This document shows positions 6,697 to 39,192 of a stretch of DNA of 64,000 bases, in pieces. The DNA is from Brevundimonas sp. Leaf363. GTDB taxonomy: Bacteria; Pseudomonadota; Alphaproteobacteria; Caulobacterales; Caulobacteraceae. Where the stretch lies: NCBI RefSeq assembly GCF_001424025.1, contig NZ_LMPZ01000001.1, positions 559,074 to 623,073 on the forward strand, in the 5' to 3' direction. The first letter of the stretch is position 1. Every line of letters begins with the position of its first letter. Position numbers and translations under genes: made by a program. A model generated the notes under the pieces. That model searched no databases. It was not told where the DNA came from and saw only the letters and a program-made list of their open reading frames with translations.

Positions 6697-6807
6697 CTCT
6701 CCGCTCATCCCGGCGGAAGCCGGGAACCAGTTCTTTAGCCAAGGTCGCTACGGCTGAAGTGGTGCGCGGAGTTCTCACTGGATCCCGGCTTCCGCCGGGA
6801 TGAGCGG
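6697..6807. repeat. Inverted pair of REP-like hairpins, family A, without gene
   Basis: The left arm from 6697 and the right arm ending at 6807 are inverted copies. Each arm contains a 7-bp stem with a GGAA loop (TCCCGGC-GGAA-GCCGGGA). The arms match those flanking the GIY-YIG gene at 13656 and 14035, with compensatory stem changes. The centre (about 50 bases) has no gene. The pair lies between two convergent genes. Confidence 0.8.
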
Positions 6808-11980: not shown

Positions 11981-13645
11981 ATGGGACGTTTCGTCTTCAA
12001 ACTGCCCGACGTGGGCGAAGGCACCGCTGAGGCCGAACTGGTGGCCTGGAAGGTCGCCGTGGGCGACCGCGTCGCCGAGGACCAGATCGTCGCCGAGGTC
12101 ATGACCGACAAGGCCACGGTGGAGATCACCGCCCCCGTCGACGGCGTGGTCGTCGCCCTGCACGGCGAGGCCGGCGCCATGGTCCCCGTGCGCGGCCCGC
12201 TGGTCGAGTTCGAGGTCGAGGGCGCCGGTAATGCGGAGGCCGAGACGGCCGCGCCCAAGCCCGCACCGGCCCCTGCCACCAAAGCTGAACCGGCCAAGCC
12301 CGTCCCGGCGCACGCTAAGGTCGCCGCGCCCGTGGCGGCCGGCGGCAACTACGTCTTCAAGCTCCCCGACGTCGGCGAAGGCACCGCCGAGGCCGAGCTG
12401 GTCGGCTGGCATGTCAAGGTCGGCGACCGCGTCGAGGAGGACCAGATCCTTGCCGACGTCATGACCGACAAGGCCACCGTCGAGATCACCAGCCCCGTCG
12501 CCGGCGTCGTCGTGGCCCTGCACGGCGAAGCGGGTCAGCAGTCGCCGGTCGGCGGCCCGCTGGTGACGTTCGCGGTCGAGGGTGCGGGAAATGCTCCGGC
12601 GGCTGCGTCCGTGGAAGCCCCCTCCACCGCTTCGCGGTCCCCCTCCCCCAATGGGGGAGGATCTGATGAGGCCGCAGTCGCGCCTACCAAATCTCCCCCC
12701 CTTGGGGGGAGTACCCGCGCAGCGGGGGAGGGGGGCAAGTCCACGCTCGCCCGCCCCAGCAAACCCGGCCAGCGCCCCCTCGCATCCCCCGCCGTGCGCA
12801 ACCGCGCCCGCGACCTGGGCGTGGACCTGTCCGAAGTCACCGGATCCGGCCCCGCCGGCCGCATCGAACACGCCGACCTCGACGCCCATCTGGCGCGCGG
12901 CCAGGGCCAGTCCTCCGTCCACGGAACACCCTTCTCCAAGGCCGAGGGCGCGACCGAGGTCCGCATCATCGGCCTGCGCCGCAAGATCGCGGAGAAGATG
13001 GCCGAGAGCGTGCGGCGCATCCCGCACATCACCTATGTCGAGGAGATCGACGTCACGGCGCTGGAGGAGCTGCGGGCCCACCTCAACGCCACGCGCACCA
13101 AGGATCAGCCCAAGCTGAACCTGCTGCCCTTCATCGCTCGCGCCATCGTCGTGGCCCTGCGCGACCAGCCCCAGATCAATGCGACCTATGACGACGAGGC
13201 CGGCACCCTGACCCAGCACGCCGCCGTCCACCTGGGCATCGCCGCCCAGACGCCGAACGGCCTGATGGTGCCGGTGGTCCGCCACGCCGAGGCGCTGGAC
13301 GCCTGGGCCACATCCAACGAGATCGCCCGCGTCTCCGGCGCCGCCAAGGCGGGCACGGCCAAGCGTGAGGAACTCTCGGGATCGACCATCACCATCACCT
13401 CGCTGGGCACGCTGGGCGGAGTGGTCCACACCCCCATCATCAACCACCCCGAAGTCGCCATCGTCGGCCCCAACAAGATCGCCGAACGGGTCGTGGTGCG
13501 CGACGGCCAGATGGTCATCCGCAAGATGATGAACCTGTCCTCCAGCTTCGATCACCGCATCGTCGACGGTCACGACGCGGCCGTCTTCGTCCAGCGGATC
13601 AAGGGCCTGCTGGAACAGCCGGCGACGTTGTGGATGGCGGGGTGA
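11981..13645 (+). CDS. bkdB: Branched-chain 2-oxo acid dehydrogenase E2 (dihydrolipoyl acyltransferase), two lipoyl domains
   Basis: A 554-residue E2. Two nearly identical lipoyl domains occupy residues 1-80 and 122-202, each with VMTDKATVEI; the lipoylated lysines are Lys44 and Lys164. A linker follows, then a peripheral-subunit-binding domain (about 265-302) and the catalytic domain ending in SSSFDHRIVDGHDAA with His525 and Asp529. It transfers the branched acyl group to CoA. Many E2b proteins have one lipoyl domain; the duplication is internal. Residues 212-252 of the linker are encoded by a palindromic repeat that elsewhere in this window lies between genes (see 12614-12736). Confidence 0.93.
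   Translation: MGRFVFKLPDVGEGTAEAELVAWKVAVGDRVAEDQIVAEVMTDKATVEITAPVDGVVVALHGEAGAMVPVRGPLVEFEVEGAGNAEAETAAPKPAPAPATKAEPAKPVPAHAKVAAPVAAGGNYVFKLPDVGEGTAEAELVGWHVKVGDRVEEDQILADVMTDKATVEITSPVAGVVVALHGEAGQQSPVGGPLVTFAVEGAGNAPAAASVEAPSTASRSPSPNGGGSDEAAVAPTKSPPLGGSTRAAGEGGKSTLARPSKPGQRPLASPAVRNRARDLGVDLSEVTGSGPAGRIEHADLDAHLARGQGQSSVHGTPFSKAEGATEVRIIGLRRKIAEKMAESVRRIPHITYVEEIDVTALEELRAHLNATRTKDQPKLNLLPFIARAIVVALRDQPQINATYDDEAGTLTQHAAVHLGIAAQTPNGLMVPVVRHAEALDAWATSNEIARVSGAAKAGTAKREELSGSTITITSLGTLGGVVHTPIINHPEVAIVGPNKIAERVVVRDGQMVIRKMMNLSSSFDHRIVDGHDAAVFVQRIKGLLEQPATLWMAG
12614..12736. repeat. Palindromic repeat (family D) inserted in frame in bkdB
   Basis: Bases 12614-12664 match the right half of the intergenic element at 45720-45770 almost base for base (AAGCCCCCTCCACC, then GGTCCCCCTCCCCC, then ATGGGGGAGGATC with few differences). 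Bases 12690-12736 are an inverted partner. Here the 123 bp lie inside the E2 gene, keep the frame open and encode a Ser/Pro/Gly-rich linker. Confidence 0.8.
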
Positions 13646-13655
13646 GCACTCTCTT

Positions 13656-13691
13656 CTCCGTTCATCCCCGCGGAGGCGGGGACCCAGGTTT
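13656..13691. repeat. Left REP-like arm (family A) of the GIY-YIG cassette
   Basis: A 36-base arm, CTCCGTTCATCCCC and so on, ending CCCAGGTTT, with a 7-bp stem and GGAG loop. It is the inverted copy of 14000-14035; the core of about 30 bases is identical. Confidence 0.88.
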
Positions 13692-13708
13692 TAGCCGCTG
13701 AGCCGCCG

Positions 13709-13996
13709 ATGGCCTTCTACACCTACATCGTCGCGAGCCAGCGCAACGGAACGCTGTATGTGGGTTCAACCGACGACTTGCTGCGCCGGATGCTGGAGCA
13801 CCAGACCAAGGCGCGCGGCGGCTTCACGGCGAAGCACGACGTGCACAAGCTGGTATGGTTCGAGGCGCATGACACGCGGGAGGGCGCGTTCACCCGCGAG
13901 CGGCGGATTAAGAAGTGGAACAGGCCTTGGAAACTGCGCCTGATCGAAGAAATGAACCCCGGCTGGCGCGATCTCGTCGAGACACTGAGCGCGTAG
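13709..13996 (+). CDS. GIY-YIG nuclease family protein
   Basis: A 95-residue single-domain GIY-YIG nuclease of the YhbQ/UPF0213 type. The two signature strands are YTYIVAS (GIY position) and GTLYVGSTDDLLRRMLEH (YIG position); catalytic residues fit the tyrosines, Arg in LLRR and the glutamate in TRERRIKKWNRPWKL. Such proteins nick or cut DNA; their cellular role is unclear. The gene is unrelated to the keto-acid dehydrogenase operon in which it lies, and it is bounded on both sides by inverted copies of a REP-like hairpin, so it looks like an inserted cassette. No good Shine-Dalgarno precedes the ATG. Confidence 0.88.
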   Translation: MAFYTYIVASQRNGTLYVGSTDDLLRRMLEHQTKARGGFTAKHDVHKLVWFEAHDTREGAFTRERRIKKWNRPWKLRLIEEMNPGWRDLVETLSA

Positions 13997-13999
13997 CCT

Positions 14000-14035
14000 A
14001 AACCTGGGTCCCCGCCTCCGCGGGGATGAGCGGAG
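14000..14035. repeat. Right REP-like arm (family A) of the GIY-YIG cassette
   Basis: Inverted copy of 13656-13691, beginning 3 bases after the nuclease stop codon. Its outer end (CGGAG, 14031-14035) also serves as the Shine-Dalgarno of lpdA, whose GTG is at 14043. Confidence 0.88.
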
Positions 14036-14042
14036 AGTTTGA

Positions 14043-15437
14043 GTGCAAGTCCTCAAGACCAAAGTCCTGATCATCGGCGCCGGCACCGGCGGCTATGTCG
14101 CGGGGATCCGCTGTGGGCAGCTGGGGCTGGACACGGTGCTGGTGGACGGCGGCGATGGGCTGGGCGGCACCTGCCTGAACGTCGGCTGCATTCCGTCCAA
14201 GGCCATCATCCATGCGGCGAGCAAGTTCGAGACGGTGGCCAAGGCAGCTGGCGGCGGCACGCTGGGCATCACGGCGGCCGCGCCGGCGATCGATCTGAGC
14301 CAGACCGTGGCCTGGAAGGATGGCATCGTCCGTAAGCTGAACAACGGCGTCGCGGCCCTGCTGAACAAATCCAAGGTCAAAGTCATCCGCGGCTGGGCGA
14401 CCTTCTCGGACGCCAAGACCTGTACGGTCGGCACGGACGACGGCGACATCCGCATCACCGCCGAGCACGTCATCCTAGCGACGGGGTCCGAGCCGGTCGA
14501 ACTGCCCTTCCTGCCGTTCGGCGGCGACGTCATCTCCTCGACCGAGGCCCTGTCGCTGGATGCGGTGCCGGAGCGGCTGGTGGTCGTCGGCGGCGGCTAT
14601 ATCGGGCTGGAGCTGGGCATCGCCTTCCGCAAGCTGGGCGCACGGGTGGCCATCGTCGAAATGGCCGACCGCATCTTGCCGCTCTACGATAAGGCCCTGA
14701 CAGACCCCGTCGCCAAATGGCTGGAGCGGCACGGGGTCGAGCTGCACCTCGGCGCCCGCGCAGGCGGCTTCGGGGACGGGAAGCTGTCGATCACGACGAG
14801 GGACGGCGAGCCGATGCAGCTGGAGGCCGACAAGGTGCTGGTCACCGTCGGGCGCCGGCCGCGCACCAGGGGCTGGGGCCTGGAAAACATGGGCCTGGCC
14901 ATGGACGGCCCCTTCGTGAAGGTCGACGCCCGCTGCGCCACCGCCATGAAGAACGTCTGGGCCGTCGGCGACCTGACCGGCGAACCCATGCTGGCCCACA
15001 AGGGCTCGGCTCAGGGCGAGATCGTCGCCGAGATCATTGCGGGCCGCGACCGCGTCTTCGATCCCGTCACCATCGCCGCCGTCTGCTTCACCGAGCCGGA
15101 GATCGTCTCGGCGGGCCTAGGCCCCCAGGACATCGAGGGACGCGACGACGTGATCCAGGCGGTCTTCCCCCTGGCCGCCATCGGTCGCGCCCTGGCCATC
15201 GAGGCCGGCGACGACGGCGGCTTCGTCCGCGTCATCGCCAACAAGGACGATCACCGCCTGCTGGGCGTCCAGGCCGTGGGCCAGCACGTCGCCGAGATGT
15301 CGAACAGCTTCGCCCAGATGCTGGAGATGGGTGCGGTGCTGGAAGACGTCGCCGGCGTCATCCACGTCCACCCGACGCTGGGCGAGGCCTTCCACGAAGC
15401 CAGCCTGCGCGCGCTCGGGCACGCGATACACATCTAG
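14043..15437 (+). CDS. lpdA: Dihydrolipoyl dehydrogenase (E3)
   Basis: A 464-residue FAD disulfide oxidoreductase that reoxidises the lipoamide of E2 with NAD+. It has IIGAGTGGYVA (FAD dinucleotide fold), the redox pair Cys44/Cys49 in GGTCLNVGCIPSK, VVGGGYIGLELG (NAD fold), WAVGDLTGEPMLAHKG, and HVHPTLGEAFHEA with the catalytic His-Glu. It is the last gene of the bkd operon, so it is the complex-specific E3. The start is GTG; its GGAG ribosome site is part of the right REP-like arm. Confidence 0.93.
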   Translation: MQVLKTKVLIIGAGTGGYVAGIRCGQLGLDTVLVDGGDGLGGTCLNVGCIPSKAIIHAASKFETVAKAAGGGTLGITAAAPAIDLSQTVAWKDGIVRKLNNGVAALLNKSKVKVIRGWATFSDAKTCTVGTDDGDIRITAEHVILATGSEPVELPFLPFGGDVISSTEALSLDAVPERLVVVGGGYIGLELGIAFRKLGARVAIVEMADRILPLYDKALTDPVAKWLERHGVELHLGARAGGFGDGKLSITTRDGEPMQLEADKVLVTVGRRPRTRGWGLENMGLAMDGPFVKVDARCATAMKNVWAVGDLTGEPMLAHKGSAQGEIVAEIIAGRDRVFDPVTIAAVCFTEPEIVSAGLGPQDIEGRDDVIQAVFPLAAIGRALAIEAGDDGGFVRVIANKDDHRLLGVQAVGQHVAEMSNSFAQMLEMGAVLEDVAGVIHVHPTLGEAFHEASLRALGHAIHI

Positions 15438-21239: not shown

Positions 21240-21316
21240 TGGTGGCTGGAGGCGGGATCGAACCGCCGACCTGTGGGTTATGAATCCACCGCTCTAACCA
21301 TCTGAGCTACCCAGCC
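21240..21316 (-). tRNA. tRNA-Met (CAT), elongator type
   Basis: On the minus strand GGCTGGG pairs with TCCAGCC (one G-T) as acceptor stem, with the D-arm GCTCAGATGGTTAGAGC, the anticodon loop ATTCATAAC (CAT), the T-arm GGCGG-TTCGATC-CCGCC, and an encoded CCA at the 3' end (21242-21240). The 5' G1-C72 pair and D-arm fit elongator Met and not initiator. A CAT tRNA modified to read Ile AUA is the alternative. Confidence 0.93.
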
Positions 21317-38933: not shown

Positions 38934-39192
38934 CTCTCAGCGGGGAGGCTGGGAATGTTACCGTAACAGGCGCGCGGCGGATGGCTACGCTGGAGTGAAC
39001 GCCGAAACGCGATGTGTGCGGCGCATCGTTTTCCGGCGCGCGGCGCTTGCCTTGACCGCCAGGGCCGGGCAGGGACGGCCGACCAGGATCCGGGCCATCG
39101 CCGCCCGGTGGCTATCCCGTCCGCCCATCCGTCGGGAAATCGCCGCGACCGGACCCCCAGGCGGGGTCGGCGGCAGACGACAAGACGATCCC

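Follow-up and report, generated by a model that had tools for sequence, protein, structure and literature searches.

The window, the 64-kb stretch of Brevundimonas DNA analysed here, carries a 376-bp element that separates E2 from E3 in a 2-oxoacid dehydrogenase operon. The element consists of a small GIY-YIG nuclease gene and a pair of inverted REP-like hairpins, one on each side of it. The features considered below are:

6701..6807, no strand assigned: gene-less REP dimer with the stem/loop CCCGGC-GGAA, between two convergent genes
11981..13645, + strand: E2 gene, upstream of the cassette
13658..14033, no strand assigned: whole element, two head-to-head REPs around the GIY-YIG gene, from CCGT to GCGG
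13658..13687, + strand: 5′ REP; tag CCGTTC, stem ATCCCCGC / loop GGAG / GCGGGGAC, tail CCAG
13709..13996, + strand: GIY-YIG nuclease gene; 95 aa, residue 69 is K
14004..14033, - strand: 3′ REP, inverted; ends 9 nt ahead of the GTG taken as the E3 start
14043..15437, + strand: E3 (dihydrolipoyl dehydrogenase) gene, downstream of the cassette; TIGR01350, 440 bits vs a cut-off of 409

The edges of the element were set from dimers read in the genus Brevundimonas. Its arms (13655-13691 and 14000-14036) are 37 nt each and 97% complementary, in agreement with the earlier note, which had described near-identical inverted arms around a small GIY-YIG gene. The note had also claimed that the cassette splits E2 from E3 in an otherwise tight operon, and this is borne out by the E1a-E1b-E2 gaps of 2 and 1 bp. 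Its name for the operon, bkd, is plausible at most: E3 scores above the cut-off of the lipoamide dehydrogenase model, but E1 and E2 match pyruvate or 2-oxoglutarate dehydrogenase-type models, all below those models' cut-offs, and the label is therefore not firm. Folded as single-strand DNA, the 5′ REP reaches -9.2 kcal/mol (z -2.66). As RNA, the 397-nt cassette stretch folds far more strongly than its shuffles (z -7.8) because the arms pair. A search of Rfam reveals no known structured RNA above the gathering score at the cassette; in the window as a whole, the only matches above that score are a tRNA at 21243-21316 and a sul1 RNA riboswitch-type match at 39083-39141.

With up to three mismatches allowed, the hairpin pattern is found four times in the window and never in 100 dinucleotide shuffles. 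Two of the four hairpins flank the GIY-YIG gene, while the other two make up the gene-less dimer at 6701-6807. The earlier note had taken the latter (there 6697-6807) for the same arms without a gene. A related pair is indeed present, but it is of another type, CCCGGC-GGAA as opposed to CCCCGC-GGAG in the cassette. Throughout the genus 75 distinct dimers were read. Of these, 32 are short (86-127 bp) and 43 long (363-529 bp), most of the long ones enclosing the GIY-YIG gene. In the short dimers the CCGC at positions -4 to -1 is conserved at 98-100%, and all positions outside the element at ≤56%. Comparison of the ends of the 32 short and 43 long elements for direct repeats (n=1-9) revealed no clear target-site duplication: identity is at or near the permuted level, the top excess being 2 SD in one of 18 comparisons. 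The elements thus bear no signature of a known integration reaction and lack the duplication that characterizes an IS or MITE moved by a DDE transposase.

In stem, loop, tail and dimer layout the cassette hairpins appear to belong to the CGTC superfamily of REPs (Di Nocera et al. 2013, PMC3733652). According to that paper, its members possess an 8-9 bp stem starting with A-T, a 4-5 nt loop, a CCA-type tail and a terminal tag of CGTC, or TGTC/CCTC; they are found chiefly in alphaproteobacteria, mostly paired head to head across a spacer some tens of bases long, and dRS3 of Neisseria is named as a CGTC-1 member. The Brevundimonas REPs share the 8-bp stem from A-T, a 4-nt loop, a CCA-like tail and the head-to-head arrangement, but their tag is GCTC or GTTC, CGTC itself being found at homologous genes of other taxa. 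A further difference is that the Brevundimonas REPs are accompanied by a GIY-YIG gene; for CGTC REPs the 2013 paper reports no dedicated enzyme and regards the associations with transposase genes as fortuitous.

The ORF at 13709-13996 matches Pfam PF01541 with an E-value of 3.9e-17 (62.7 bits vs a curated cut-off of 22.6). An alignment of 39 rows reveals that Y17, R27, H31 and E64 are invariant and Y6 is conserved in more than 90%; we take the conserved Tyr, Arg and Glu to be the catalytic ones. This match and these residues place the protein in the GIY-YIG nuclease superfamily. Its predicted structure (pLDDT 93, pTM 0.84) places residue 69 at the end of helix 57-69, which bears E64. The nearest solved folds to this model are Slx1 (Z 7.6, 2.7 A over 93 residues) and UPF0213 1zg2 (Foldseek E 9.6e-5). 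The VIA-align rows with Z ≥5 are all GIY-YIG proteins (Slx1, At-HIGLE, UPF0213, I-TevI, UvrC and a 5hmC restriction enzyme), a Z under 8 by itself being little proof. Slx1 is a nuclease of branched DNA; in contrast to Slx1 and UPF0213, the cassette protein comprises 95 aa, without Slx1's extra domains, and is encoded with cognate repeats. The gene is under purifying selection as judged from dN/dS, which was 0.03-0.24 in 17 hand-picked pairs, including 0.17-0.20 in the two that contain the cassette gene. Two other identities were considered and rejected: a gene for defence against phages, for which PADLOC gave no match at E 0.01, and phage cargo, for which the phage collection had a single record (E 4e-6).

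A related GIY-YIG protein is encoded by at least 87 of the 101 Brevundimonas genomes in the genus set, and REP hairpins occur in 89 of them (reversed control, 0). Apart from the window genome's second GIY-YIG gene, 110 loci were read among the matches listed, 108 of which were usable; two genus loci, and two named ones, were dropped at contig edges. A hairpin stands beside the gene on both sides at 51/108 loci and on at least one side at 76/108. Counted by flank, 127 of 216 carry a hairpin vs 28 of 344 shifted control windows (200 bp, 600-900 bp away from the loci), both read with the same detector, which is permissive here and in the wider sample, some of its matches clearly not being REPs. 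The earlier note had proposed a REP family tied to a GIY-YIG nuclease, and had named in advance a lack of enrichment near such genes as the point on which the proposal would fall; the arms are enriched there. The association is tightest near the cassette protein, a hairpin being present at 28/30 loci with at least 65% identity; among relatives at 45-50% identity none of 15 has such a hairpin on both sides, and many have other palindromes. A motif-free inverted-repeat score of at least 20 was reached by all 31 loci of the window genome and genus and by 26 of 54 named loci (some of which duplicate genus loci, one having been dropped), shifted controls scoring ≤12. The wider sample, drawn from the order and phylum as the best matches of two queries, gave hairpins on both sides at 28 of 57 loci and on either side at 43, vs 21 of 220 controls.

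The layout resembles that of REPIN/RAYT systems (REPtron) in its repeat-flanked gene, in the dispersed head-to-head dimers and in the match of gene type to repeat type. It differs in having a GIY-YIG nuclease, no Y1 domain and no GTAG tag; the Y1 HUH transposase gene that the repeats of a REPIN/RAYT system flank is not present. The transposase search, which covered the Y1_Tnp family only, detected RAYT-type transposases in 3/101 Brevundimonas genomes and none in the window genome. RAYTs therefore do not explain these REPs and were rejected as their dispersers in the genus. With Y1 transposases absent from 98 of 101 genomes, the suggestion in the note that a GIY-YIG nuclease takes the place of the Y1 transposase in a RAYT-REP layout has held up.

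Within the window genome (3.13 Mb) the hairpin pattern occurs 43 times at ≤2 mismatches, and not at all in the reversed control. Most copies are of the CCCGGC-GGAA type, as around the second GIY-YIG gene (G000:C1:386056-386328), while exact type A (CCCCGCGGAGGCGGGG) is limited to two copies, the cassette's own arms. Dispersed head-to-head dimers that match the gene flanks occur in most genomes tested, the cassette's own type in the window genome being the exception. Further copies of type A were found in 5/6 genomes with a type A-flanked gene vs 10/95 others, of type B (CCCGGCGGACGCCGGG) in 11/11 vs 5/90, and of type C (CCCGGCGAAAGCCGGG) in 9/11 vs 36/90; since both genomes and genes share descent, these counts are not independent tests and p-values overstate them. 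The median REP number is 27 in the 45 genomes with a flanked gene vs 6 in the 56 without. Mapped onto the protein tree (106 rows, 61 of them labelled by REP), the type requires 14 changes, the minimum being 10 and the shuffled mean 41.4, and none of 200 shuffles was as low. Some REP-rich genomes have no matching gene among the 110 loci read (e.g. G089 with 22 type A copies and G098 with 46 of type C), though in some of these matching genes may have been missed.

The type of hairpin is closely paralleled by a single residue of the protein. From 212 distinct proteins (identical ones dropped), 126 had one strict stem label. Where the stem core, six bases long, has a pyrimidine at its fourth position, residue 69 is K or R in 82/84 rows, and where this base is G, residue 69 is E or D in 38/41. 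In full, the C-stem rows (n=80) have K 77, R 1, A 1 and N 1; the T-stem rows K in 4/4; the G-stem rows (n=41) E 36, D 2, F 1, A 1 and N 1; and the one A-stem row S. The exceptions number 5/125 (L354 A, L380 N, L105 F, L331 A and L379 N), the rule being followed by 63/63 proteins in the genus set and 57/62 outside it. Among 121 C/G rows, residue 69 is the best column (leave-one-out accuracy 0.959, baseline 0.661), followed by residue 71 (0.901). In the column comparison for the genus, residue 69 is K in 36/36 proteins with CCCCGC, and E in 23 and D in 1 of the 24 with CCCGGC. The second gene of the window genome, which lies outside that comparison set, has E69 and CCCGGC flanks, as the rule predicts; the dimer at 6701..6807, also with the stem CCCGGC, would by the same rule belong to this second gene. 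Genes of both stem types occur together in 12 genomes, and all 28 genes conform. That residue 69 tracks a base of the hairpin suggests, with good support, that the enzyme directly recognises its REP. Descent limits what may be drawn from this covariation, as the best tree has 13 stem switches and no more than four have branch support; across these four the residue follows the stem in 3.3 on average, is unchanged in 0.7 and never goes the opposite way, and the sign test is not significant.

The E2-E3 junction was examined in 90 of the 101 genomes. Omitted were G006, G018, G023, G038, G040, G042, G073, G099 and G100, which had no E2 match or paralogous or partial matches only, as well as G025 and G059. 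The cassette with REPs is present at the junction in 10 genomes, and REPs alone, as a gene-less dimer, in 4; in 9 the junction is closed (≤8 bp). In the remaining 67 the genes are 97-1377 bp apart, the gap containing other ORFs, a different palindrome or sequence that was left unclassified. For one of the 10 cassettes (L195) the detector accepted the 3′ REP only, and at two of the four gene-less dimers (L131 and L144) the gap contains another ORF as well. The empty sites that the earlier note had proposed to look for at the E2-lpdA junction therefore exist: the cassette is absent from 80 of 90 genomes, and its presence at 10/90 junctions disposes of fixation in all relatives, which had been set beforehand as a refuting point. 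For the 6701-6807 site 30 loci were compared and five dropped for a missing right-hand gene. Among the 25 with both neighbours, the window genome counted, 22 have gene ends within 15 bp or overlapping, two have another palindrome, and the dimer is found in the window genome only. Given the empty sites at both places, the cassette and the dimer look like insertions.

On the protein tree the window genome's E2-E3 copy groups with others at SH-aLRT 92, unstarred and on a long branch. A single origin of all E2-E3 cassettes is doubtful, as they include a type A clade (G001, G005, G007, G026 and G051) and a GAAA/GAAC/GAAT clade (G013, G014, G030 and G084). The GIY-YIG gene seems to be mostly inherited in place, and the E2-E3 cassette to be so in at least one clade. 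RAYT genes are mostly inherited in place too.

A homologue in Neisseria gonorrhoeae with 55-57% identity has CGTCATTCCCGCG hairpins on both sides, which by their form we take to be dRS3. A 2025 study of Ssn reportedly describes a group of GIY-YIG nucleases with thousands of homologues, which in Neisseria cleave ssDNA at repeats. The gonococcal homologue may belong to this family of site-specific single-strand nucleases, a lead rather than an assignment. Ssn is reportedly likewise a small single-domain GIY-YIG protein, and because the homologue sits among dRS3-type repeats, the cassette gene probably encodes an ssDNA nuclease of the Ssn family. A literature search found no paper on GIY-YIG proteins with dRS3, and among the matches listed none joins GIY-YIG to REPs or REPINs or contains the residue-69 rule, the cognate dispersal, the empty sites or the link between GIY-YIG proteins and CGTC REPs.

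We consider it likely, with a probability of roughly 0.7, that the CGTC-type REPs flanking the gene have in its GIY-YIG product a sequence-specific nuclease dedicated to them, and that gene and repeats form a REPIN/RAYT-like pair that spreads copies. The protein would recognise the tagged hairpin that the REP forms in DNA that is single-stranded or extruded, and would cut there or immediately beside it. Residue 69, which ends the helix bearing the catalytic glutamate, would read base four of the stem core, K going with C or T, and E or D with G. With the two REPs head to head, each strand of the dimer would be cut at its outer end, and host repair synthesis of the nicked dimers would be the likely source of new copies. 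Such a pair would work like REPIN/RAYT, but the nuclease cannot rejoin DNA. Binding, cutting of ssDNA and dispersal by the cuts are what we infer from the sequences, and the enzyme perhaps spreads the repeat family. Mobility driven by the nuclease is likewise a matter of inference: the gene seems mostly inherited in place, no event has been observed, and the dispersed REPs of the window genome match its other GIY-YIG gene.

The main rival is a role in genome maintenance or DNA uptake, in which a cognate nuclease cuts REP hairpins, or REP-bearing incoming ssDNA, and does not spread them, the repeats arising by other recombination. Ssn reportedly acts in this way in Neisseria. The Slx1-like fold, the dRS3-type repeats that flank the N. 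gonorrhoeae homologue, the low dN/dS and the lack of a clear integration signature would all suit it, as would the general fact that a nuclease alone does not rejoin DNA. We nevertheless regard it as unlikely, as genomes with a flanked gene have more REPs than those without (medians of 27 and 6), REP types change with gene type, and Y1_Tnp, the sole transposase family searched, is nearly absent. Much less probable still is that the main function of the arms is to insulate a small gene in an operon, as RNA or terminator hairpins, their likeness to dispersed REPs being incidental; the RNA fold of the 397-nt stretch is what such a role would lead one to expect, but the sharp element edges, the gene-less dimers, the empty sites and the cognate matching across genomes all argue against it. 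That a Y1 (RAYT) or other transposase disperses the REPs in trans, with the GIY-YIG gene a passenger between two of them, recalls the layout and head-to-head dimers of GTAG REPs with RAYTs (PMC3733652), but is scarcely credible with Y1_Tnp in 3 and REPs in 89 of 101 genomes, more than 100 related genes with such flanks in many taxa, and the residue-base covariation.

Returning to the dedicated nuclease, its broadest form is tentative and, in our estimate, falls somewhat short of an even chance: CGTC REPs would be selfish dimers replicated by cognate GIY-YIG nucleases through cut and repair instead of by a transposase, with specificity lying largely in residue 69 (K for C/T, E/D for G) and aided by residue 71, and other GIY-YIG clades of the genus would run parallel systems with GTCAT-tagged palindromes. 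The cassette protein offers a candidate enzyme for one of the two large superfamilies of bacterial REPs, which was reported in 2013 as apparently enzyme-less (PMC3733652), and a one-residue, one-base prediction that is open to a simple cleavage assay. If the nuclease spreads the repeats, it would represent a second, chemically different route to REPIN-like elements. The residue-base covariation could also be of use in engineering ssDNA nucleases of altered specificity as laboratory tools.

Several further observations were made in the course of the comparison. In G001 (L145 / L046) the E2-E3 cassette copy has two in-frame stops, and the genome contains 43 further type A REPs, possibly an orphaned REP population. 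The frame of the window genome's second GIY-YIG gene (L002, G000:C1:384619-387825) is open through its REP into an ORF that by eye resembles RecF, giving 505 aa. Other small GIY-YIG clades in the genus (loci L252-L298) have their own long GTCAT-tagged inverted palindromes, such as CTTGTCATCCCGG..CCGGGATGACAAG and GGGTCCCCCGGT..CCGGAGGATGACG. A variable ORF of ~150 aa, which begins like a signal peptide and has an AC motif, occurs in the E2-E3 gap of many relatives (e.g. L122, L180 and L207). A second palindromic family (CTTCTCCC..GGGAGAAGG ... CCCTCTCCC..GGGAGAGGG) is found in the E2-E3 gap at L123, L125, L134, L183, L209 and L215 and at the 6701-6807 site at L309 and L310; its occurrence at both junctions in other species points to shared insertion-prone sites.
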